DNA from: Saccharomonospora sp. CUA-673
GTDB lineage: Bacteria; Actinomycetota; Actinomycetes; Mycobacteriales; Pseudonocardiaceae
NCBI RefSeq assembly: GCF_001942305.1
Contig: NZ_MKKE01000033.1
Location: 62,001-126,000 of the forward strand
DNA: 64,000 bases
Reading direction: 5' to 3'
Positions 4,487 through 26,873 of this stretch are shown here, piece after piece (the stretch's first letter is position 1; every line of letters begins with the position of its first letter). The notes beneath the pieces were generated by a model, which was not told the origin of the DNA, made no database searches, and was given only the letters and a program-made list of their open reading frames with translations. The translations under genes were made by a program, and so were the position numbers.

Positions 4487-4971
4487 GTCACTACCTCCCT
4501 GGAGTCGGTCGTGCCCCCCGACCGGCACCGGGACTTTCGGCCGATCAGCCGCGCCAGCTTTAGACCGAAAGTGGTGTCGTCGAGAGGCACTCTAGCCGCC
4601 TGAGTGGGGTAGTGGGGGCATCAAACGGGTATCTATCCCGATCGAGTTGCGGTTCGACGCCTCTGCTGTAGCGCGATGGGATTAATCCGGGAGAAAGGTG
4701 TAACACGCGCGTGAGGCTGTGCGATATTGCCCGTTTACGGTGCATGAACTGGGCGTGCATATGACGCGTGCAGGTGGGCGGACCGAGTATGACGCACTCG
4801 TCTGCGGGCGGTCTCGGGGCGGTCCGAGGGGTCCACACGGGTCCGGAACGGCTCGGCGTCGGCGACCCGGGAACCGACCTTCGGCGGGGTTCGGAGGCCT
4901 CGCGCGCGTGCGTCCGAACGGACCAAGGCCCGATGGCCAGTGGCGTGGGGCAGCGGCGTGGGGGAGCGGCG
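4487..4971. other. Intergenic region upstream of the response regulator, no gene seen
   Basis: A stretch of 485 bp with no credible coding sequence on either strand. The part from about 4610 to 4760 is less GC-rich than the surroundings and contains the 10-bp palindrome GGATTAATCC (4679-4688). It probably holds the promoter of the minus-strand response regulator. The remainder, next to the DUF3000 stop codon, is GC-rich and without recognisable structure. Confidence 0.5.
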
Positions 4972-5534
4972 TCAGGACGAGCGGCGCTGTTCGAACATCG
5001 TGACGCCCGCCGGCGGCAGGCCGGCGTAGCTGGCGATCAGCTGACAGAACGCCTCGCCGTGGGGTCCGAGTTCGGCGGTGAGCGGCGTCCAGGACGCGCG
5101 CAGCTCGAGGTCGTCGGTGCGCGAGGGTCCGGAGATCTCGCCGAAGCGGGCCGAGGAGGTCTCGGTGACGGTGCCGCCCAGTGCGGTCAGGTCGGCGCCG
5201 GTGGCCTCGAGCGCGTCGGTGAGCCAGGACCAGCCGACCGACGGCAGGAACGGATCGGTGGCCAGTTCCTTGTCGATGCCCGCGCGCACGTAGACCACGA
5301 GGCGGAAGACGCCGTTCCACGCCTCCTGGCCCTCGGGGTCGTGCAGCAGCACCAGCCGGCCGGACACCTCGACCTCGTCCGGTCCGGTGGTCTCGCAACT
5401 GAGTGCGTAGGCCCAGGCGCCAGCCGTTGGGGAGCCTTGATCGGCTCGAGGCTCACCTCCGGCCGCGGCCGCAACGATTGCAGCGCGGCGACGGCGTTGC
5501 GGAACTCCTCCGGCGCCTGGGCTATCGCGGTCAC
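4972..5534 (-). CDS. DUF3000 family protein (apparent frameshift near 5415)
   Basis: The N-terminal part (MTAIAQAPEEFRNAVAALQS through APQRLAP) and the C-terminal part (AYALSCETTGPDEVEVSGRL to the end) are in two frames. One inserted base near 5415 gives a 187-residue protein that fits the actinobacterial DUF3000 family. The family has no known function. It is soluble in appearance, without signal peptide or membrane segments. It is divergent from hemE (88 bp between starts) and conserved beside it in actinobacteria, which hints at a link to haem synthesis or simply shared ancestral order. Start ATG at 5534. Confidence 0.78.
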
Positions 5535-5622
5535 TCTCCGAGCCTAAGCCGTCCGGGCGCCCGCGCCCGCCAGGACGCGCCGACGGAAGGCCGACGATCC
5601 GGGCGTGGCACCATGAAAGGCG

Positions 5623-6744
5623 ATGACAGTCCCGTTCACCTCCTCGTCCACGTCGGCCGCCGTGGGGACGGCAGCGCAGTCCGGGCAGGCCGGGCCCTCC
5701 GCCGCCCGCCGCCACCTGCCCGACGCCCCGCTCCTGGTCGCCGCCCGCGGTGGCACGCCGAAGCACGTGCCGCTGTGGTTCATGCGCCAGGCCGGCCGGT
5801 CGCTGCCCGAGTACCGCTCGGTGCGCGAGGGTGTGCCGATGCTGCAGGCGTGCTTCGACCCGGCGCTGCTGACCGAGATCACGATGCAGCCGGTGCGCAG
5901 GCACGGGGTCGACGCGGCGATCCTGTTCAGCGACATCGTCGTGCCGCTGTACGCGGCGGGGCTGAGTATCGACATCGTCCCGGGCACCGGACCGGTCGTG
6001 GCGCACCCGGTGCGCACGGCGGCCGACGTCGACGCGCTGCCCGAGCTCGTGCCCGAGCAGGTCGCCCCGGTCGCCGACGGGGTGTCGATGCTGCTGGAGG
6101 AACTGGGCGAGACGCCGCTGATCGGCTTCGCGGGCGCCCCGTTCACCCTCGCGTCCTACCTGATCGAGGGCGGGCCCAGCCGCAACCACGAACACACCAA
6201 GGCGCTCATGCACGCCGAGCCCGAGCTGTGGCACCGGCTCGCGTCCCGGCTCGCCGACGTGACCCTGACCTTCCTCAAGGCCCAGCTGGACGCAGGGGTC
6301 GACGCGGTGCAGTTGTTCGACTCGTGGGCCGGTGCGCTCTCGCCGAAGGACTACCGGGAGTTCGTGCTGCCGCACTCGGCGCGGGTGCTGGCCGGGGTGG
6401 CCGACTACGAGGTGCCGCGCATCCACTTCGGCGTCGGCACCGGCGAGCTGCTGCCGGCGTTGCACGACGCGGGTCCGGACGTCGTCGGCGTCGACTGGCG
6501 GGTGCCCCTCGACGAGGCCGCGCGCCGACTGCGCGCCGCCGGCCAGCCGGAGCCGATCGTGCAGGGCAACCTCGACCCCGCGCTGCTGATGGCGTCGTGG
6601 CCGGTGATCGAGTCCGAGGTGCGGCGCATCGTCGAGGAGGGCCGCGCGGCGTCGGGACACATCTTCAACCTGGGCCACGGCGTCCTGCCGGAGACCGATC
6701 CGGAGGTGCTGACCCGCGTCGCCCAGCTCGTGCACAGCCTGTGA
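5623..6744 (+). CDS. hemE: Uroporphyrinogen decarboxylase
   Basis: A protein of 373 residues. The signature [13 protein letters not shown] (about residues 53-65) and [17 protein letters not shown] are the two family motifs that form the porphyrinogen pocket, and the active-site Asp is in [13 protein letters not shown]. It removes four acetate carboxyls from uroporphyrinogen III to give coproporphyrinogen III. The first 35 residues are Ser/Ala-rich and not conserved, so the true start could be internal. It opens a plus-strand haem operon: the next gene starts 8 bp after its stop. Confidence 0.95.
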
Positions 6745-6751
6745 GGCACGC

Positions 6752-8189
6752 GTGAGGGTCGCGGTCGTCGGGGGAGGCGTCTCGGGACTGACCGCCGCCT
6801 ACCGGCTCCGCACGCTGCTGGGCCCGGATACCGCGATCACCGTGTGCGAGGCCGGGTCCGAACTCGGCGGGAAGCTGCGCACGACGAGCCTCGCCGGCCG
6901 CCCGTGCGACGTCGGCGCCGAGGCGTTCCTCGCGCGCAGGCCCGAGGCGCTCGACCTGATCGCGGAACTGGGGCTCGGCGACCGCCTGCGGCACCCGTCG
7001 GGGGCCGCGTCCGGGGTGCGGGCCGGCGGGCGCACCGTCGGTCTGCCGAAACGCACCGTCATGGGAATCCCCGCCGACGGTGACTCCGTCGCCGGGGTGC
7101 TGTCGGAACGCGGCGTCGAACGGGTGGCCGCCGAGCGGGAGCTGCCGCCGCTGGAACTCGGTGACCGGGACGTCTCCCTCGGCGGGCTCGTGCGCGAGCG
7201 ACTGGGCGACGAGGTCGTCGACCGGCTCGTCGACCCGCTGCTCGGCGGCGTCTACGCCGGCGGCGCGACGGACTCGGGCTGCGCGCCGTGCTGCCCGCCC
7301 TCGCGGCCGCCCTGGACCGCGGGCCGACGTCGCTGTCGGCGGCCGTCGCGGCGCAGCTGCCCGCGACGTCCGGGGACCCGGCGACGCCGGCCGCTCCGGC
7401 GCCGGTGTTCGGCACCCTCGTCGGCGGTCTGCACACGTTGATCACCACGCTCGCCGAACGGGCCGAGGCCGAGGTGCGGCTCGGCGTCCCGGTGCGCGCC
7501 CTGGAACGCCGCGCCGCGGGCTGGCGGCTGACCTTCGGCGCCGTCCCGGACGCCACGCCCCGGCCGAGCGGGACCTCGACGTCGACGCCGTCGTGCTGGC
7601 CGTGCCCGCACCCGCCGCCGCGCGGCTGCTGGCCGACGTCGCACCCGCCGCCGCGGGTGCTTACGGCGAGGTCGAGCTGGCGTCGATGGCGGTCGTCTCC
7701 CTCGCCCTGCCCGCGGGGACGGAGCTGCCCGACGCGTCCGGCGTGCTGGTCGGGGCCACCGAACACACCGCCGCCGGTGGGCGGTTCACCGCGAAGGCCT
7801 TCACGTTCTCCGCCCGCAAATGGCCCCATCAGGCACCGGTCGGGGACGGCCCGGTGCTGCTGCGCGGATCGGTCGGCCGGTTCGGTGACACCACCGCGTT
7901 GCGGGCCACCGACGAGGAACTCGTGCGCCGCGTCCGCGCGGACCTGGCCGAACTGACCGGCATCACGGCCGACCCCGTCGACGTCGCCGTGCAGCGGTGG
8001 GGCGGCGGCCTGCCGCAGTACGGCGTCGGCCACGCCGAACGGGTCGCGCGGATCGAACGCGCGGTCGTCGGCCTGCCCGGGCTCGCCGTCGCCGGAGCGA
8101 CCCTGCACGGCGTGGGCATTCCCGCGTGTATCGGCACGGCCGATGCGGCCGCCCGGCGCGTGGCGACCCAGGTCACGGTGGGACCATAG
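6752..8189 (+). CDS. hemG: Coproporphyrinogen/protoporphyrinogen oxidase (two apparent frameshifts near 7278 and 7565)
   Basis: An FAD enzyme of the HemY/CgoX type. The N-terminal dinucleotide motif [17 protein letters not shown], the substrate-domain segment ([13 protein letters not shown]) and the C-terminal FAD-binding part ([20 protein letters not shown]) are all intact, but they occupy three frames. Adding one base near 7278 and one near 7565 restores a 479-residue protein, normal for the family. Between hemE and chdC it supplies the oxidation step of the coproporphyrin-dependent haem route (coproporphyrinogen III to coproporphyrin III). Haem synthesis should be essential, so two real inactivating mutations are unlikely. 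Confidence 0.85.
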
Positions 8190-21272: not shown

Positions 21273-23354
21273 GTGGGATCCCGTGACGGACGATCTTCCT
21301 TCCTGCGCGCGCAGGCGCGGACGCAACGGTTCACCCTCGGCACGCCGCGCCAGTTCCAGGTCACGCCCGACGGTTCGCGGGTCCTGTTCCTGCGGTCGGA
21401 GAGCGGCACCGATCGGCGGAACAGTCTGTGGCAGCTCGAGGTCGCCACCGGGGTGGAGACCAAGCTCGTCGACGCCGCGGAACTGCTGCCGGGCGAGGAG
21501 GATCTGCCCGCCGAGGAACGGGCCCGCCGCGAGCGTGCGCGCGAGACCTCGGGTGGCGTCGTCGGCTACGCGACCGACGCGGCCTGCACGATGGCGGCGT
21601 TCTCGCTGTCGGGCCGGCTCTACACCGCCGATCTGGCGACCGGCGCGACCCGCATGCTCGTCGACGCCGCCGTCGTCGACCCGCGGCCCAACCCGCAGGG
21701 CACCCACGTCGCCTACGTCGCCGACCGGCGGCTGCGCGTGGTGGACGTCGCGACGGGCGACGATCGGGCGGTCGTGGTGGAGGACGACCCCGAGGTGAGC
21801 TGGGGTCTGGCCGAGTTCATCGCCGCTGAGGAGATGCGGCGGGTGCGCGGCTACTGGTGGTCCCCGGACGGCCGCAGCCTTCTGGTGGAGCGCGCCGACC
21901 GGACGCGCGTGCCGCGCTGGAGCATCGCCGATCCGGTCAACCCGGCCGCACCCGTGAACACGGTGGCCTACCCGGCCGCAGGGACGACCAACGTCGACGC
22001 GTCGCTCGCGGTCGTGTCGCTCGACGGGGACCGGGTGGACGTGTCGCTCGGCGACTGGGAGTACCTGGCCGCGGTGCACTGGTCGGCCGGCGGCGCGCCG
22101 CTGCTGACCCTGCAGACGCGGGACCAGAAGCGGCTCGAGGTGCACGCCCTCGAGGTCGCGGACGGGTCGACGAAGCAGCTGCACGTCGAGACCGATCCGG
22201 ACTGGGTGGAGCTCGTGCCCGGCGTCCCGGCGTGGACGAGGGACGGGCGGTTCGTGCACGTCGGGGTCGCCGACGACGCCTACCGCCTCTACGTCGACGG
22301 TACGGCCGTGACGGGCCCGGAGCTGCAGGTGCGGTCGGTCGTCGACGTCGGCGACGAGGTGCTGTTCAGCGCGTCCGAGGCGGATCCGACACAGATCCAC
22401 GTGTACCGCACCGACGGTGGTTCGGTGCGGCGGCTGTCGACCGGCGACGGTGTCCACAATGGATCGGGCAGTGTGGACACCGCGGTGCTGTCGTCGTGGA
22501 GTCCGGAGTATGCCGGCATTCGCGTGTCGGTGCTGTCCGCGGGCGGGGAGGTCGGCCGCATCGCGTCGGTGGCGGTCGAACCGGGTGTCGTGCCGAACGT
22601 GCAGTGGTTGGAACTGGGGGAGCGCGGCCTGCGGGCGGCGCTGGTGCTGCCGACCGGGCACGAACCGGGCAGCGGATCGTTGCCCGTGCTGCTGGACCCG
22701 TACGGCGGTCCGCATGCCCAGCGCGTGCTGCGGAGCCGCAACGCGATGTTGACGCCCCAGTGGCTGGCCGATCAGGGATTCGCGGTGCTCGTCGTCGACG
22801 GGCGCGGCTCGCCGGGACGTGGACCCGCGTGGGAGCGCGCCATGTCCGGCGATCTCGGTGATGTGGCCCTGGCCGACCAGGTGGACGCGCTGCACGCCGC
22901 GGCCGAGCGGTTCGGTGAGCTCGACCTCGGCCGGGTCGCGATCCGCGGCTGGTCGTTCGGCGGATACCTCGCCGCGGCGGCCGTGCTGCGCCGGCCGGAC
23001 GTGTTCACCGCGGGCGTGGCGGGTGCGCCCGTGACGGACTGGAGCCTCTACGACACCCACTACACCGAGCGCTACCTCGGGCACCCGGAGGAGAATCCCG
23101 AGGCCTACGAACGCAACTCGCTGATCACCGACGCGCCGAGCCTGGAGCGGTCGCTGCTGATCGTGCACGGGTTGGCCGACGACAACGTGTTCGTCGCGCA
23201 CGCGCTGCGACTGTCGTCGGAACTGCTCGCTGCGGGCCGGGCGCACACGTTCCTGCCGTTGGCCGGTGCGACGCACATGACGCCGCAGGCCGAGGAGGTC
23301 GCGGAGAATCTGATGCTCACCCAGGTCCGCTGGATCAAGGAACAGCTCGGCTAG
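21273..23354 (+). CDS. S9 family prolyl oligopeptidase / dipeptidyl aminopeptidase
   Basis: A protein of about 693 residues. The N-terminal beta-propeller (residues about 30-420, with WSPDGRSLLVERAD and similar blades) gates a C-terminal alpha/beta-hydrolase domain. There the nucleophile is in RGWSFGGYLAA, the acid in HGLADDNVF and the histidine in AGATHMTPQ. It cleaves short peptides, preferentially after Pro or Ala. There is no signal peptide. The start is uncertain: a GTG at 21283 in another frame (VTDDLPS) also looks natural, and one extra base shortly after it would feed into the conserved RAQARTQRFTLG stretch, so a further small frameshift is possible. Confidence 0.9.
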   Translation: MGSRDGRSSFLRAQARTQRFTLGTPRQFQVTPDGSRVLFLRSESGTDRRNSLWQLEVATGVETKLVDAAELLPGEEDLPAEERARRERARETSGGVVGYATDAACTMAAFSLSGRLYTADLATGATRMLVDAAVVDPRPNPQGTHVAYVADRRLRVVDVATGDDRAVVVEDDPEVSWGLAEFIAAEEMRRVRGYWWSPDGRSLLVERADRTRVPRWSIADPVNPAAPVNTVAYPAAGTTNVDASLAVVSLDGDRVDVSLGDWEYLAAVHWSAGGAPLLTLQTRDQKRLEVHALEVADGSTKQLHVETDPDWVELVPGVPAWTRDGRFVHVGVADDAYRLYVDGTAVTGPELQVRSVVDVGDEVLFSASEADPTQIHVYRTDGGSVRRLSTGDGVHNGSGSVDTAVLSSWSPEYAGIRVSVLSAGGEVGRIASVAVEPGVVPNVQWLELGERGLRAALVLPTGHEPGSGSLPVLLDPYGGPHAQRVLRSRNAMLTPQWLADQGFAVLVVDGRGSPGRGPAWERAMSGDLGDVALADQVDALHAAAERFGELDLGRVAIRGWSFGGYLAAAAVLRRPDVFTAGVAGAPVTDWSLYDTHYTERYLGHPEENPEAYERNSLITDAPSLERSLLIVHGLADDNVFVAHALRLSSELLAAGRAHTFLPLAGATHMTPQAEEVAENLMLTQVRWIKEQLG

Positions 23355-23728
23355 CCGAACAGGGTCGAACCGGCCCAGAGTCCAGCGCCGGCGGCCAACA
23401 GGCCGCCGGCGATCGTGAGCAGCACGTAGCCGGCGGCCGTGCCGCTGCGGCGCTGCTCGATGAGCCGGACGGTGTCGTAGCCGAACGTCGAGAACGTGGT
23501 CAGCGAACCGCACAGCCCGATCCCGGCCAGTGCGAACACGGCCTCGCCCTCGACGCCGGCCGACAGCACCCACGCCGTGAGGACGCCCAGCAGCCCCGAG
23601 CCGACGAGGTTGGCGACGAACGTGCCGCGGGGAAACGCCCCGGTCTGCCCGCGGCGCAGCCGCAGGTCGATCAGATAGCGCAGCACGGCCCCACCCGCGC
23701 CGCCGAGCAGCACCATCACGCCGGTCAC
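23351..23728 (-). CDS. crcB: Fluoride ion transporter FluC/CrcB, second subunit
   Basis: A protein of 125 residues with four hydrophobic helices. The N-terminal GGAGGAVLRYLID and the LCGSLTTFSTFGYD motif carry the conserved Asn/Phe/Thr-Ser residues of the fluoride pore. Fluc channels work as antiparallel dimers, and two adjacent unequal genes usually form a heterodimer. Its GTG start overlaps the stop of the upstream crcB by 4 bp. Its stop overlaps the end of the convergent S9 peptidase gene by a few bases. Confidence 0.93.
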   Translation of the reverse strand: MTGVMVLLGGAGGAVLRYLIDLRLRRGQTGAFPRGTFVANLVGSGLLGVLTAWVLSAGVEGEAVFALAGIGLCGSLTTFSTFGYDTVRLIEQRRSGTAAGYVLLTIAGGLLAAGAGLWAGSTLFG

Positions 23729-24129
23729 GGCGCCGTCCCCTTCCCGCGCGCCGCGAGCCGGGCCAGGCAGATCCCCACGACGACGGCGAGCAGCGACGCG
23801 AACACCGACCCGGCGGCGTAGGCGAACGACGCCACCAGCCGTCCGCCGTCGGCGGCCGAGAGCGTGTCGAGCACGTAGGTCGAGAAGGTGGTGAACCCGC
23901 CGAGCACGCCGACCCCCAGGAACGGGCGCAGCAGCCGCGGCGACCGCGCGCGCAGCGACAAGATCGCCATCAGCGCACCGAGCGCGAGACAGCCCGCGAC
24001 GTTCGCCAGCACCGTCGCGACGCCCGCGGGCGAGGGCAGGGCGAGCCCGAGTCCGTAACGCGCGAGGCTGCCGAGCGCACCACCCGCCGCGACGGCGAGC
24101 AGCACGTCCCAGTGGCGGGTTCGGGTCAT
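23725..24129 (-). CDS. crcB: Fluoride ion transporter FluC/CrcB, first subunit
   Basis: A protein of 134 residues with four hydrophobic helices and the FluC motifs GGALGSLARYGLG and GVLGGFTTFSTYVLD. It is the upstream member of a coupled pair and should export fluoride out of the cell as a heterodimer with the second subunit. ATG at 24129 is chosen because the open frame further upstream reads as GC-rich noise. I looked for a fluoride riboswitch in the leader and did not recognise one. Confidence 0.93.
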   Translation of the reverse strand: MTRTRHWDVLLAVAAGGALGSLARYGLGLALPSPAGVATVLANVAGCLALGALMAILSLRARSPRLLRPFLGVGVLGGFTTFSTYVLDTLSAADGGRLVASFAYAAGSVFASLLAVVVGICLARLAARGKGTAP

Positions 24130-24455
24130 GGGCCCATCATCATGGATCGTCCGCGGCACGTTCGCCGGCCCCGCGCCGCACGACCGGACGGTGGCGGCGC
24201 AGCGTCGCGACGCCGCCGCCGATGCGCACGTCGCCGCCGTCGGCTGAGCGGTGGAGGGGCTCGGCTTTTCCTGCAGGGCCCGTTTGCGCCACCGGAGCCC
24301 CAGGCGCTCCACGTCCCGGATGTGTGGGCCTCTCGGACTGCGTTATCCATGTCCACGACAAGCACGTGGCCGCTTCGACCCGCCGGTAGCGTGACCTTGA
24401 CGCCCTACTACTCCCGGAACGTGCGACACCTGGTGAACTTGGCGAGGAGATAACG
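24130..24455. other. Intergenic region between crcB and the unrecognised gene, carrying a direct-repeat copy
   Basis: A stretch of 326 bp with no credible gene. It holds the left copy of the 23-bp direct repeat (24235-24257). To the right of that repeat the sequence becomes noticeably less GC-biased and continues in that style into the following gene. GAGGAGA just before 24456 is the ribosome site of that gene. Confidence 0.5.
24235..24257 (+). repeat. Left copy of a 23-bp direct repeat flanking an accessory-looking gene
   Basis: It matches 25466-25488 at 21 of 23 positions, in the same orientation. The shared core is CGGCTGAGCGGTG (24241-24253), with single mismatches five bases from the left end and four from the right. 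Together the copies bracket a 1.2-kb unit containing one gene. Confidence 0.6.
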
Positions 24456-25433
24456 ATGGACGCACCGGTCCGCCCCAACGCCCATCGGCTGGAACCGAGT
24501 GACCTCACCGAGTGGGGGCTCCACGCATTCGCGCTCGGAGCTCGCAGCACTCCGCACGGAATCGTTGCCCTGGACGACAACGGCGCGCTCCTCTACGCGG
24601 CAAGAGATGGCGCCACCCTGTCCGAGCTGGAGGCCAACGGGATCGCGCCTTCGCAGAGCCAGCTGAAGTTATTGCAGGTGTATGACCTCATCGAAGTCGA
24701 CGACGACCGTGTCACCACAGCGTTTCCGGTCGTCGGGCCCGACATCTTCGACCCGTTACGCCCGAGGATCCGCCAGTTGGCTACAGACCTGACGCACAAG
24801 GTCAGTGCTGAGGTCCGGGCAATTCGCGAGGAACTGCGCCGCCGCGGCCACCACGGGCACGATTACGCTGTCGTCTTCGGTCATGCTGTGGATGGACTGC
24901 TGTGGGACCGGCTGCGCGCTACCGACATGGTTCCCGATACCGGGCTGTCGCTGGACCGGCCGCTCTGGAACGGCGCGTTCTGGGCGATTTATCCGCCGAT
25001 TCCAGCCGGTGCCGGCGTCAATGAGATTTCGGGAGAGGCCGGCACACTTGTCATGGTCTGGACCGAAAGCACTCGCCACGCCCTGCAGGAAGTCGCTCTC
25101 TCCGAAACAGCCCGGCAGTTGCTCAAGGACCCGACAGCGCAGATCGAGATTCCGGTACTCGTGCCGGACATGAGCGACATGCTCCATGTCCACAGTGTGA
25201 CCATCGCCGAGACGATCGCCGAGACGCTCACAACGGAGACGCAGGCACAAGCGCTCTTCGCGGCGATCCCGAACGCTAGCGCTCACGAACGCACGCTCAT
25301 CGTGGTGCATGAACTCATCTGGGCCCTCACGCAGGAGTTGGTCTCAGCGGGGTACCTCCAACCCCTGGCGGACGAGGTGGAGGTGGCCCGGCAGAACCTC
25401 AATGAACACCTGCTGGTCCGCATCGGTGCCTGA
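24456..25433 (+). CDS. Unrecognised protein, possibly horizontally acquired
   Basis: A protein of 325 residues that I do not recognise. There are no membrane segments or signal peptide. Residues about 45-85 (ATLSELEANGIAPSQSQLKL then a short strand pair VYDLIEVDDDRVTTAFPVV) could be a winged-helix-like unit. Later there are a charged helix (IREELRRRGHHGHDYAVVFG), an aromatic block (PLWNGAFWAIYPPIPAG) and a strand TLVMVWTEST. The C-terminal third is helical. Codon use is less GC3-biased than in the neighbours, and the gene is bracketed by a direct repeat, both signs of transfer. GAGGAGA precedes the ATG. No partner gene is obvious, though the convergent helical membrane protein is a candidate. 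Confidence 0.75.
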   Translation: MDAPVRPNAHRLEPSDLTEWGLHAFALGARSTPHGIVALDDNGALLYAARDGATLSELEANGIAPSQSQLKLLQVYDLIEVDDDRVTTAFPVVGPDIFDPLRPRIRQLATDLTHKVSAEVRAIREELRRRGHHGHDYAVVFGHAVDGLLWDRLRATDMVPDTGLSLDRPLWNGAFWAIYPPIPAGAGVNEISGEAGTLVMVWTESTRHALQEVALSETARQLLKDPTAQIEIPVLVPDMSDMLHVHSVTIAETIAETLTTETQAQALFAAIPNASAHERTLIVVHELIWALTQELVSAGYLQPLADEVEVARQNLNEHLLVRIGA

Positions 25434-25465
25434 GGTCCGGTCGGCATCGCGTGGATGCGGCGGCT

Positions 25466-25488
25466 CGCCGACGGCTGAGCGGTGTAGG
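25466..25488 (+). repeat. Right copy of the 23-bp direct repeat
   Basis: Same-strand near-identical partner of 24235-24257 (21 of 23 positions). It sits in the 67-bp gap between the stop of the unrecognised gene (25433) and the stop of the convergent gene (25501). Confidence 0.6.
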
Positions 25489-25500
25489 TCCGAGCGGGCG

Positions 25501-26535
25501 TCAGGCGGTGCGGGCGTGGGTGGTCGGCGCCTTGGCCGGCGGGCCCTGGGGTGCCGGGGGCCGGGATGCGGCGGTCCGGTCGCTGCCGTTCCGCGCTGCC
25601 TTCGCCGGTGCCGATGTCCCGGCCGGAGCCGGCGTTCCGGGGTTCGGCGTTCCTGCGGCGTGTGTCTGCGATGCCTGCGCCGGGCGTCCGTTGCTGCCGA
25701 AGCTCGGTTGGGAGCGGTCGGGTCGGGAGCCGTTGCGCGGCGCCGGCGGCGTACCGACCTGCGTGGGCGGTTCGGGTGCCGGTGCGCTGATGCTGCGGGT
25801 GTCCGGCTCGGCGATCGCCTCGTCGTGGATCTCGGCGTCGCCGACGGTGGCGAGGCTGGCGCTGATGGTGCGCTGGAACTGGCGGTGCACGTTGGCCAAT
25901 TCGTGCCGCAGCGCGTGCACGCCCTGGGCCACGGGGTCCTTCTCGGACAGCGTGTCTGTCTCGACCGAGCGCAGGAGGACGTCGATGTGGCCGTGCAGCC
26001 GCTGGTGCACGTAGCCGAAGGCGATGAGCTGGTGCTGCACCTCCAGGCTCGGGGAGGTGCGCGAGAGCGCCTTGATCATCGTGTCCTGCCAGCGCTGGCA
26101 GGACTGCCGGTAGTGACGGTTGGCGGCCTGCCGGTAGTGCGGCGCCACCTGGGTGTCGAGGCCGATGCGGACGAGCTCGGTGCTGGCGTCGACCAGCTCA
26201 CGCGCGGCCATGGTCAGGGCGTAGGCCCATTCCCACTGCTCGGCCTGGGTGCTGGCCTGCTTGTCCTGCTGGGCCTGCTCGAGTTGCGTGTTGGCCAGCT
26301 TGACCTGCTCCCACGCCCAGCGGGCCTGGTCGCGGGCGCTCTGGTCGGCCTCGGCCGCGTGGCCGGCGTGGTGCTGGGTCTCGGTGGACAGGTCGCGGAC
26401 CTGAAGGGCCAGCCGGTGGATCTGCTGGGCCTGTCTGCGGGCCTTCACGAGCTGCCAGCCGGCGAGCGATACGGCGATGATCGCCACTGCTGCCAGACCC
26501 ACCGCCACCCAGAGGGTCATCTCCGCTGTCCGCAT
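25501..26535 (-). CDS. Membrane-anchored helical protein with Pro/Ala-rich tail, function unknown
   Basis: A protein of about 344 residues. One N-terminal membrane helix (TLWVAVGLAAVAIIAVSLAGW) is followed by a Gln/Ala-rich helical region up to about residue 230 that is probably coiled coil (LALQVRDLSTETQHHAGHAA, LANTQLEQAQQDKQAS). The last 110 residues are Pro/Ala/Ser-rich and disordered. I recognise no family. The ATG at 26535 is taken as start; GTG 18 bases upstream and ATG 15 bases downstream are alternatives. It converges on the unrecognised gene and may belong to the same accessory patch. Confidence 0.72.
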   Translation of the reverse strand: MRTAEMTLWVAVGLAAVAIIAVSLAGWQLVKARRQAQQIHRLALQVRDLSTETQHHAGHAAEADQSARDQARWAWEQVKLANTQLEQAQQDKQASTQAEQWEWAYALTMAARELVDASTELVRIGLDTQVAPHYRQAANRHYRQSCQRWQDTMIKALSRTSPSLEVQHQLIAFGYVHQRLHGHIDVLLRSVETDTLSEKDPVAQGVHALRHELANVHRQFQRTISASLATVGDAEIHDEAIAEPDTRSISAPAPEPPTQVGTPPAPRNGSRPDRSQPSFGSNGRPAQASQTHAAGTPNPGTPAPAGTSAPAKAARNGSDRTAASRPPAPQGPPAKAPTTHARTA

Positions 26536-26873
26536 GGGTGCCGAGGGTCTCACATTCCGTTTTGATGAACATGAGAGGTGAGGTAGGACTCACCGGTTAG
26601 GATGCACGGTCTCACTCAGCGTGCTCTCGCTGTGCCATTTCGCACCCGTGATCGGGACGAATCGGATACGTGTCGCGGCGTCGTCGGACACCGCCGTGCC
26701 CGGCCGTGCGAACGTCCGCCGGCCGTCCTGTGCCGATCGTGCGGTATGCCCCGTTCGGCTGTGTCCCACGGCACCCTGGTGCGTGGCGAACGTGCATCGG
26801 CGCCGAGATCGCGAATGATGGAACGCGACAGGAACCGAGGTGTCTCGGGCAGCTTGTGGCGGAGGAGCAGCGG
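26536..26873. other. Leader region of mgtE, divergent from the helical membrane protein
   Basis: About 338 bp without a credible gene. On the plus strand TTGATG (26562-26567) and TAGGAC (26584-26589) are separated by 16 bp and could be a sigma-70-like promoter. That would leave an mgtE 5' leader of roughly 280 nt. I did not recognise an M-box riboswitch in it. GGAGGAG (26860s) before the ATG is the ribosome site of mgtE. Confidence 0.35.

Follow-up and report, generated by a model that had tools for sequence, protein, structure and literature searches.

How did a single gene of deviating base composition come to stand between conserved genes, enclosed by two nearly identical short repeats? 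The locus that raises this question lies in a 64-kb window (the whole stretch of DNA analysed here), in which 52 open reading frames (ORFs) were called by script, some of them probably miscalled. A sequence-only reading had proposed that a small cargo unit was inserted at this place by recombination or by an unknown element. Much of its description is borne out. The flanking repeats are present, identical at 21 of 23 nucleotides and 1231 nt apart. The gene between them, here called P1, has a G+C content of 0.642, the lowest of the 52 ORFs, and a GC3 of 0.78 vs a median of 0.90, in keeping with the less GC-biased codon use that had been noted. P1 is also the sole ORF with a coding signature between the repeat copies, so that the unit shows no visible transposase of its own, and it could be assigned to no family of Pfam, NCBIfam, PHROGs or PADLOC above cut-off; the earlier reading, too, had assigned it to none. 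The claimed position between crcB and the mgtE side holds on the left; on the right the immediate neighbour is another conserved gene, P2, behind which mgtE (Pfam MgtE) follows.

The 23-nt repeat alone proves little, since an equally good pair was present in 3 of 15 order-3 Markov shuffles of the window, although in the window itself these two copies form the only pair of such quality at a spacing of 30-1499 nt. The exact 19-nt core of the repeat occurs in just two places of the 5.4-Mb assembly (91.6% complete), namely the two repeat copies; with one or two mismatches, 5 further places were found, and a reversed control pattern also gave 5 at the same threshold. The repeat is therefore not a dispersed family, and the genome-wide check for further copies that had been suggested yields nothing above control. 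What exceeds chance is the position of the copies on junctions with remnants of native genes, rather than the bare repeat. The repeats had also been said to abut the change in composition. In 300-base windows the stretch of low G+C does touch the right copy; on the left, its onset lies roughly 0.1-0.2 kb to the right of the repeat. The features discussed below are listed in Table 1.

Table 1. Features of the P1 locus and its flanks (window coordinates)
Feature	Coordinates	Strand	Remarks
crcB-type gene 2	23351..23728	-	Native left flank; Pfam CRCB, E 2.5e-23; syntenic in 6/6 congeners
crcB-type gene 1	23725..24129	-	Native left flank; 78-81% identical to the same-place orthologue in 6/6 congeners
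DHFR-like gene, internal remnant	24197..24244	-	48 bp; gene kept in 5/6 congeners
Left repeat copy	24235..24257	+	End of DHFR remnant (24235-24244) and 13-nt duplicate (24245-24257)
Filler	24258..24351		94 bp; without detectable relative among the sequences compared
34-aa ORF	24349..24453	+	Start of the scrap, with frameshift; in frame with ORF 24112-24453
T7SS-type toxin/immunity junction scrap	24352..24481	+	Frameshifted; matches loci of G001 and G005
Main gene P1	24456..25433	+	325 aa; family uncharacterised; first 7-8 codons from the immunity scrap
ECF42-type sigma gene, 3' end remnant	25453..25478	+	MRRLADG, stop
Right repeat copy	25466..25488	+	Native: sigma-gene end and downstream bases
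P2, conserved protein	25501..26553	-	Native right flank; in 7/7 genus genomes

The native state of the locus can be read from the genus sample, which comprised seven genomes, the window's own and six congeners. In all six congeners crcB1, crcB2 and an S9 peptidase gene adjoin P2 in the same order; P2 has an N-terminal hydrophobic segment (by eye) and no Pfam family. In five of them the interval between crcB1 and P2, about 2.6-2.7 kb long (not exactly measurable in locus L026), holds three genes: a RibD_C/DHFR-like gene on the crcB strand, and a YCII gene and an ECF42-type sigma gene on the opposite strand. In locus L025 Pfam recognises RibD_C, YCII, and Sigma70_r2, Sigma70_r4_2 and DUF6596, respectively. 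The sigma ORF was recognised by eye in all five congeners, and a separate YCII ORF was listed for L025 and L027 only. The DHFR-like protein is 214 aa long in L025, and intact same-place orthologues, 87-100% identical to that copy, occur in the five congeners; the window holds a fragment only. The lost genes, as judged from their L025 copies, resemble an ECF42 module in combining sigma regions 2 and 4, a DUF6596 extension and an adjacent YCII gene; of such a module the window retains only the last codons of the sigma gene. A YCII-protein neighbour is described as conserved for group ECF42 (PMC8999054), and the label ECF42 as used in this paper rests on the domains and the YCII neighbour.

The sixth congener, G001, has no trio either: an apparent stop region of the sigma gene is all that is left beside P2, and a protein search found no DHFR-like orthologue, the best match reaching 35%. 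At this locus (L023, G001:C9, about 5840-5950) the trio has gone with other borders and without P1 in its place. The trio was thus lost in these genomes at least twice or in different stages. In an unrooted tree the window's genome (G000) and G001 branch outside the clade of the five congeners that keep the trio.

Both repeat copies prove to be tied to these native genes. On the left, 42-44 of the 48 bases of the DHFR-like remnant are identical to each of the five trio congeners, and the likeness ends at 24244. A protein search with the DHFR-like protein independently finds the same remnant (residues 131-159, 62% over 29 residues, E 8.8e-4); its alignment extends to 24280, with merely two more matching residues there, and beyond the remnant the protein meets only a 33% match, on another contig, in the assembly that holds the window. 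The left repeat copy is a composite. Its first ten bases, the end of the DHFR remnant, are like the sigma-gene end at 9 of 10 positions, and its last 13 bases, which begin at the base directly after the remnant, repeat the sequence at the sigma stop and just downstream of it, with 12 of 13 positions identical. This 13-mer, TGAGCGGTG(G/T)AGG, is matched at 12 or more of 13 positions only at the two repeat copies among the 127,976 13-mers of the window (both strands). On the right, the sigma gene ends in MRRLSPGDD in congener locus L024 and in LRRLAPGDG in L025, and the window bases after its stop, TGAGCGGTGT, resemble those at the same place in L024 (TGAGCGGTGTTAGGCGG) and L023 (TGAGCGGCGTCAGGCGG); L025-L028 diverge more downstream of the stop. 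Because 25453-25478 and the following bases resemble the sigma-gene end of congeners, the right repeat copy is native. The repeats thus do not lie in plain non-coding DNA, as had been thought: the left copy begins within the DHFR-like remnant, and the right one covers the final sigma-gene codons together with the stop. Some 16 nt (25486-25501) are extra between the sigma-gene end and the P2 stop, genes that nearly touch in L023 and L024.

Between the same border points, 2205-2223 bases lie in the five congeners vs about 1.2 kb in the window. Since the congeners hold three genes there whose remnants form most of both repeat copies, comparison shows that a segment of about 1.2 kb has taken the place of about 2.2 kb. 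DNA was lost on the crcB side as well, the distance from the crcB1 start to the DHFR remnant being 67 bp in the window vs about 280 bp in L024. A target-site duplication is ruled out as the source of the repeat, the left copy being a hybrid of the DHFR remnant and sigma-downstream bases and the right copy a sigma-gene end; nor can the pair be the duplicate of one uninterrupted target, as about 2.2 kb separates the border points in five congeners. What is doubled is the 13 bases at and after the sigma stop, the preceding codons being alike only by short similarity. An empty site with one repeat copy in relatives had been proposed as proof of insertion; they do hold the one native copy, the sigma-gene 3' end, and no single copy of the full repeat. 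What looks like the footprint of an insertion thus turns out to be largely built from the leftovers of genes.

The DNA between the left repeat copy and P1 is a mosaic. Local alignments of 24245-24351 with the congener regions and with toxin loci score no higher than shuffles, and a DNA search of 60 relatives that covered 24258-24351 gives matches only from 24352 onward. There begins what comparison with two congeners shows to be a scrap of a T7SS-type polymorphic toxin/immunity locus. With 24240-24455 as DNA query against 60 relatives, the own genome included, only G001 and G005 were matched besides the window itself, both at the junction of a toxin-like and an immunity-like gene. The scrap is 76% identical to G001 (L060:5955-6080) over 126 columns (E 3.7e-19) and 77% identical to G005 (L061) over 78 columns (E 1.8e-10), and its alignment score of 103 compares with a maximum of 35 in 300 shuffles. 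The G005 toxin carries a T7SS_signal domain (Pfam, E 9.7e-42) and the G001 toxin copy has a stop within its frame; 'immunity' denotes position beside the toxin, the G005 immunity-like protein belonging to no Pfam family. The scrap matches the junction of such loci and differs from them in holding neither an intact toxin nor an intact immunity gene.

In the scrap, the 3' tail of the toxin ends at a stop at 24392-24394 (RFDPPVA in the window vs RFNPPVR-stop in G001), the ATG of the immunity-like gene reads ACG at 24400-24402, and the loss of one base shifts the frame within the immunity-like part. Past this frameshift the immunity-like frame PGELGERVVMDASVHPP has its counterpart in PGELGEEITMDAPVRPN of the window. 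P1 thus takes its first 7-8 codons from the immunity-like gene. Beyond its first residues P1 shows no likeness to the one immunity-like protein compared (BLASTP E 1.9), and the core of the P1 family begins at about residue 13. The 34-aa ORF of Table 1 stops 2 nt before the ATG of P1, and GAGGAG at 24444-24449 could serve P1 as a ribosome site. A conserved leader peptide upstream of P1 was considered and rejected: the 34-aa ORF is scrap, and nothing alike was seen by eye upstream of 7 homologues. A scan for promoters and terminators found none.

The toxin locus of G005 has features of its own. In L061 (G005:C3:184000-196000, about 4550-7422) the T7SS-type toxin gene is preceded by a weakly WXG100-like gene and followed by a run of immunity-like genes, two of which were called; a third similar one was seen in L059. 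One immunity-like protein of L061, of no Pfam family, is matched by 14 plasmid records (8 from Paraburkholderia, 3 from Vibrio, 2 from Caballeronia and 1 from Photobacterium), with 41-42% identity among the five matches listed.

P1 itself has a distribution at odds with the taxonomy of its host. It is present in none of the six congeners; relatives that shared the gene, both repeats and the neighbours had been named as what would speak against an insertion, and the congeners lack P1. Its closest relatives in named genomes belong to a metagenome-assembled genome (MAG) of Agrococcus (66% identity) and to two Glycomyces (62-64%); in the tree P1 groups with these copies, the Glycomyces ones given there as 62-63% identical, and with a further relative at 60% identity; remoter ones occur in Streptosporangium, Nonomuraea and Devosia (36-39%). 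Homologues from its own taxonomic family, five copies with 39-44% identity, fall in another clade, and the branches separating the two clades have supports of 97-99. The family alignment comprises 20 sequences, with L051 (a partial second copy) and L056 (the same ORF as L055) not included. The P1 family is rare and patchy. Profile scans, which scored at most 5-22 candidates per genome and may miss weak members, found it in 7 of 297 genomes of the own taxonomic family (the own genome included, and one of the seven a false match), in 1 of 394 genomes of the class and 1 of 396 of the phylum (each time the own genome only), in 5 of 250 genomes around Streptosporangium and 6 of 101 around Glycomyces (seed genomes included), and in 1 of 199 around Devosia, the seed itself. 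The false match, in G308, was dropped as a P1 homologue, the ORF being SGNH-hydrolase-like by eye. Because no sampled congener carries P1 and the tree contradicts taxonomy, we infer that P1 was probably gained horizontally after the split from these congeners. In this sense the proposed insertion by recombination stands in part: the gain is probable, and a clean insertion into one repeat copy is contradicted by the remnants of the trio.

Selection and gene context in the P1 family were also compared. In eight homologue pairs dN/dS ranges from 0.19 to 0.42 (NG86), the highest value being that of the shallowest pair, L013/L048, and P1 vs the Agrococcus copy (L010) gives 0.24; the compared members of the family are therefore under purifying selection. 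Neighbours differ among most of the 11 homologue loci read, and the match between the window and these loci is confined to the P1 gene. No conserved gene neighbourhood was recognised in them, one genus excepted: in genus g16, three of the four P1 copies (L038, L039 and L040) have a neighbourhood in common, whose genes are by eye VOC-like (all three), ArsR-like (called in two) and SRPBCC-like (called in two). Next to or near the Agrococcus homologue, two short ORFs (6027-6344 and 8362-8700 of L010) are by eye like orfA of the IS3 type. P1 was also considered as a phage, plasmid or defence gene and discarded as such, with no match in PHROGs, PADLOC or the plasmid, phage and viral-contig searches, the viral-contig scan using two short peptide patterns.

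From these comparisons, the unit is probably the scar of a replacement, by which P1 was gained horizontally through illegitimate, similarity-assisted exchange. We infer the following order of events. The ancestor would have had the order crcB, DHFR-like gene, YCII gene, ECF42-type sigma gene and P2; the lineage leading to the window would then have lost the three genes in the middle and taken in P1-bearing DNA in their place. This incoming DNA would have been linked to the 5' end of an immunity-like gene from a T7SS-type toxin locus of this genus, from which P1 would have received its upstream region and its first 7-8 codons. The likeness of the scrap to congeners makes it probable that P1 and scrap were joined in this genus, either before the replacement or in the same chain of events. 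The borders may have been joined via the short similarity CGCCG(T/A)CGGC, found in the DHFR-like gene and at the sigma-gene end, so that the left half of the near-repeat would represent a short similarity between two native genes, and the right half would have arisen when the few bases behind the sigma stop were duplicated. The route could have been homology-facilitated illegitimate recombination, or else end-joining accompanied by a loss of host DNA, which would leave a similar scar.

Such an event is of a known kind. The sections cited here of two reports call homology-facilitated illegitimate recombination rare (PMC3240628, PMC5361080), describe gains of about 1 kb that go together with losses of about 1 kb, the illegitimate junction mostly showing 3-10 bp of microhomology (PMC3240628), and put forward a like route for effector-immunity modules (PMC5361080). 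The window is alike in that about 1 kb of foreign DNA would have replaced host DNA of similar size, an insertion of about 1.2 kb coupled to a deletion of 2205-2223 bases, with a similarity of a few bases at the junction. It differs in the added 13-nt duplication, the toxin/immunity scrap and the further small losses, and in that the event is read back from its scar. The homology visible at the borders is the 9/10 similarity. Several features fit the replacement less well, and the rarity of the route counts against it too. The 13-base duplication is unneeded in a simple two-ended exchange and would call for a template switch or a further step; more than one event is needed to explain the toxin/immunity scrap and the 94-bp filler; the loss of DHFR-like sequence on the crcB side as well agrees no worse with stepwise decay than with one exchange; and no intermediate state was seen in the 7 genomes of the genus, one of which is of this species. 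The locus is nonetheless a readable case of a gene swap, in which one can distinguish what is left of the lost genes, the piece of a toxin locus and the incoming gene.

Integrases usually integrate at the 3' ends of genes, and the chief rival explanation, although an improbable one, builds on this preference. P1 would have integrated at the sigma-gene 3' end, site-specifically or by a single crossover, and duplicated the gene end into att-like copies; the trio would afterwards have been removed by a deletion running from the DHFR-like gene to the left gene end, between bases that are similar in the two. Two steps would thereby account for the duplicated 13 nt and for a sigma-gene end that is longer on the right, and in the part of a conjugation study relied on here most clones were single crossovers with duplication and not illegitimate replacements (PMC3240628), which favours this course too. 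It is opposed by the unit itself, which holds no second ORF with a coding signature and hence no integrase, and by the homologue loci, with which the window shares nothing outside P1 and among whose ORF starts no integrase was recognised by eye in 11 loci (L010 has the IS3-like ORFs nearby); the plasmid, phage and viral-contig searches, without a match, also count against it.

Less probable still is that the 13-nt match of the left copy is due to chance, the trio having decayed by several deletions and P1 having come separately by end-joining. Equally good 23-nt pairs in 3 of 15 shuffled windows and the loss on both sides of the DHFR remnant would suit such a history, yet the 13-mer starts right after the remnant and recurs nowhere else in the window at 12 or more of 13 positions. 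As for a small mobile unit that moves single genes with 23-bp repeats and lacks its own transposase, the patchy P1 family, its mostly changing neighbours in the 11 loci read and the IS3-like ORFs (by eye) near the Agrococcus copy might hint at one; the repeat copies derive from native genes, the 19-nt core is not repeated elsewhere above control, and the similarity of window and homologues stops at the gene, all of which makes this very improbable. Nothing was found that points to the unknown mobile element once suspected here, and native genes account for the repeat copies. Replacement, with the gain of P1 by illegitimate exchange, remains the reading we prefer.

The protein family brought in by this replacement is unnamed, and its members offer hints of function. 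An AlphaFold prediction from 8 sequences (model 1) reached a pLDDT of 66.4, and one from 20 sequences (model 2) a pLDDT of 92.1 and a pTM of 0.89. In model 2, residues ~27-90 form a winged helix. No sequence relative with a solved structure was found up to E 10, and fold searches (model 1 against PDB, model 2 against PDB and BFVD) gave no match below E 0.15. A second fold comparison with model 2 returned middling Z scores, 6.4 at best, and these do not establish a new fold. P1 residues 27-186 align with the ArsR-type regulators CadC (Z 6.4, rmsd 3.2, 78 residues) and YodB (Z 6.1, rmsd 3.3, 77 residues), Z scores in a range that the comparison tool calls common; P1 differs from these in a large C-terminal part without a match found. 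O-methyltransferase entries are also in the list (Z 4.1 and 4.0), and winged helices act as dimer parts in O-methyltransferases. In the predicted recognition helix and wing (residues 64-90) the net charge is negative in 17 of the 20 members, zero in 2 and positive in 1, a non-basic character that speaks weakly against ordinary reading of DNA; for the family as a whole it carries little weight because the whole domain (33-92) is negative in only 10 of 20 members (-7 in P1), zero in 4 and positive in 6. The C-terminal part contains invariant residues, W171, N172, G173, F175, W176 and A177, and H285, E286, I288 and W289, which form a WNGxFWA-like and a HExIW motif.

P1 is probably a working soluble protein. 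On the models and motifs, it may be a small-molecule-binding protein or an enzyme, or it may be a regulator; we regard the two readings as equally likely, each tentative and falling somewhat short of an even chance. A role in immunity is much less likely; immunity proteins as a class vary widely, and the immediate neighbours of P1 are crcB1 and P2, with no intact toxin gene and only the scrap of a toxin tail upstream. More speculatively, and with considerable doubt, P1 might found a new family of unsolved fold, in which the winged helix would serve as a dimerisation or lid part rather than read DNA and would be combined with a conserved Trp/His/Glu pocket, and which would have spread as a stand-alone gene among distant actinobacteria and a Devosia; here it would have taken over the expression signals of an immunity gene, the toxin/immunity junction being its landing site. 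Rare, conserved and confidently modelled, and matched by no solved structure in the searches above, the P1 family is open to direct study.

Among Pfam families, DUF7109 was discarded as a name for the P1 family, its match (E 0.002, in 1 of 20 members) staying under the cut-off. Five other families weakly match one or two members each, the best being Phage_Mu_Gp27 (E 0.00012, 2 of 20). In one genome the first part of a P1 homologue and the DNA upstream of it are doubled, the two copies (L048 and L051, at 7892371 and 7879750 of G1284:C2) lying 12.6 kb apart.
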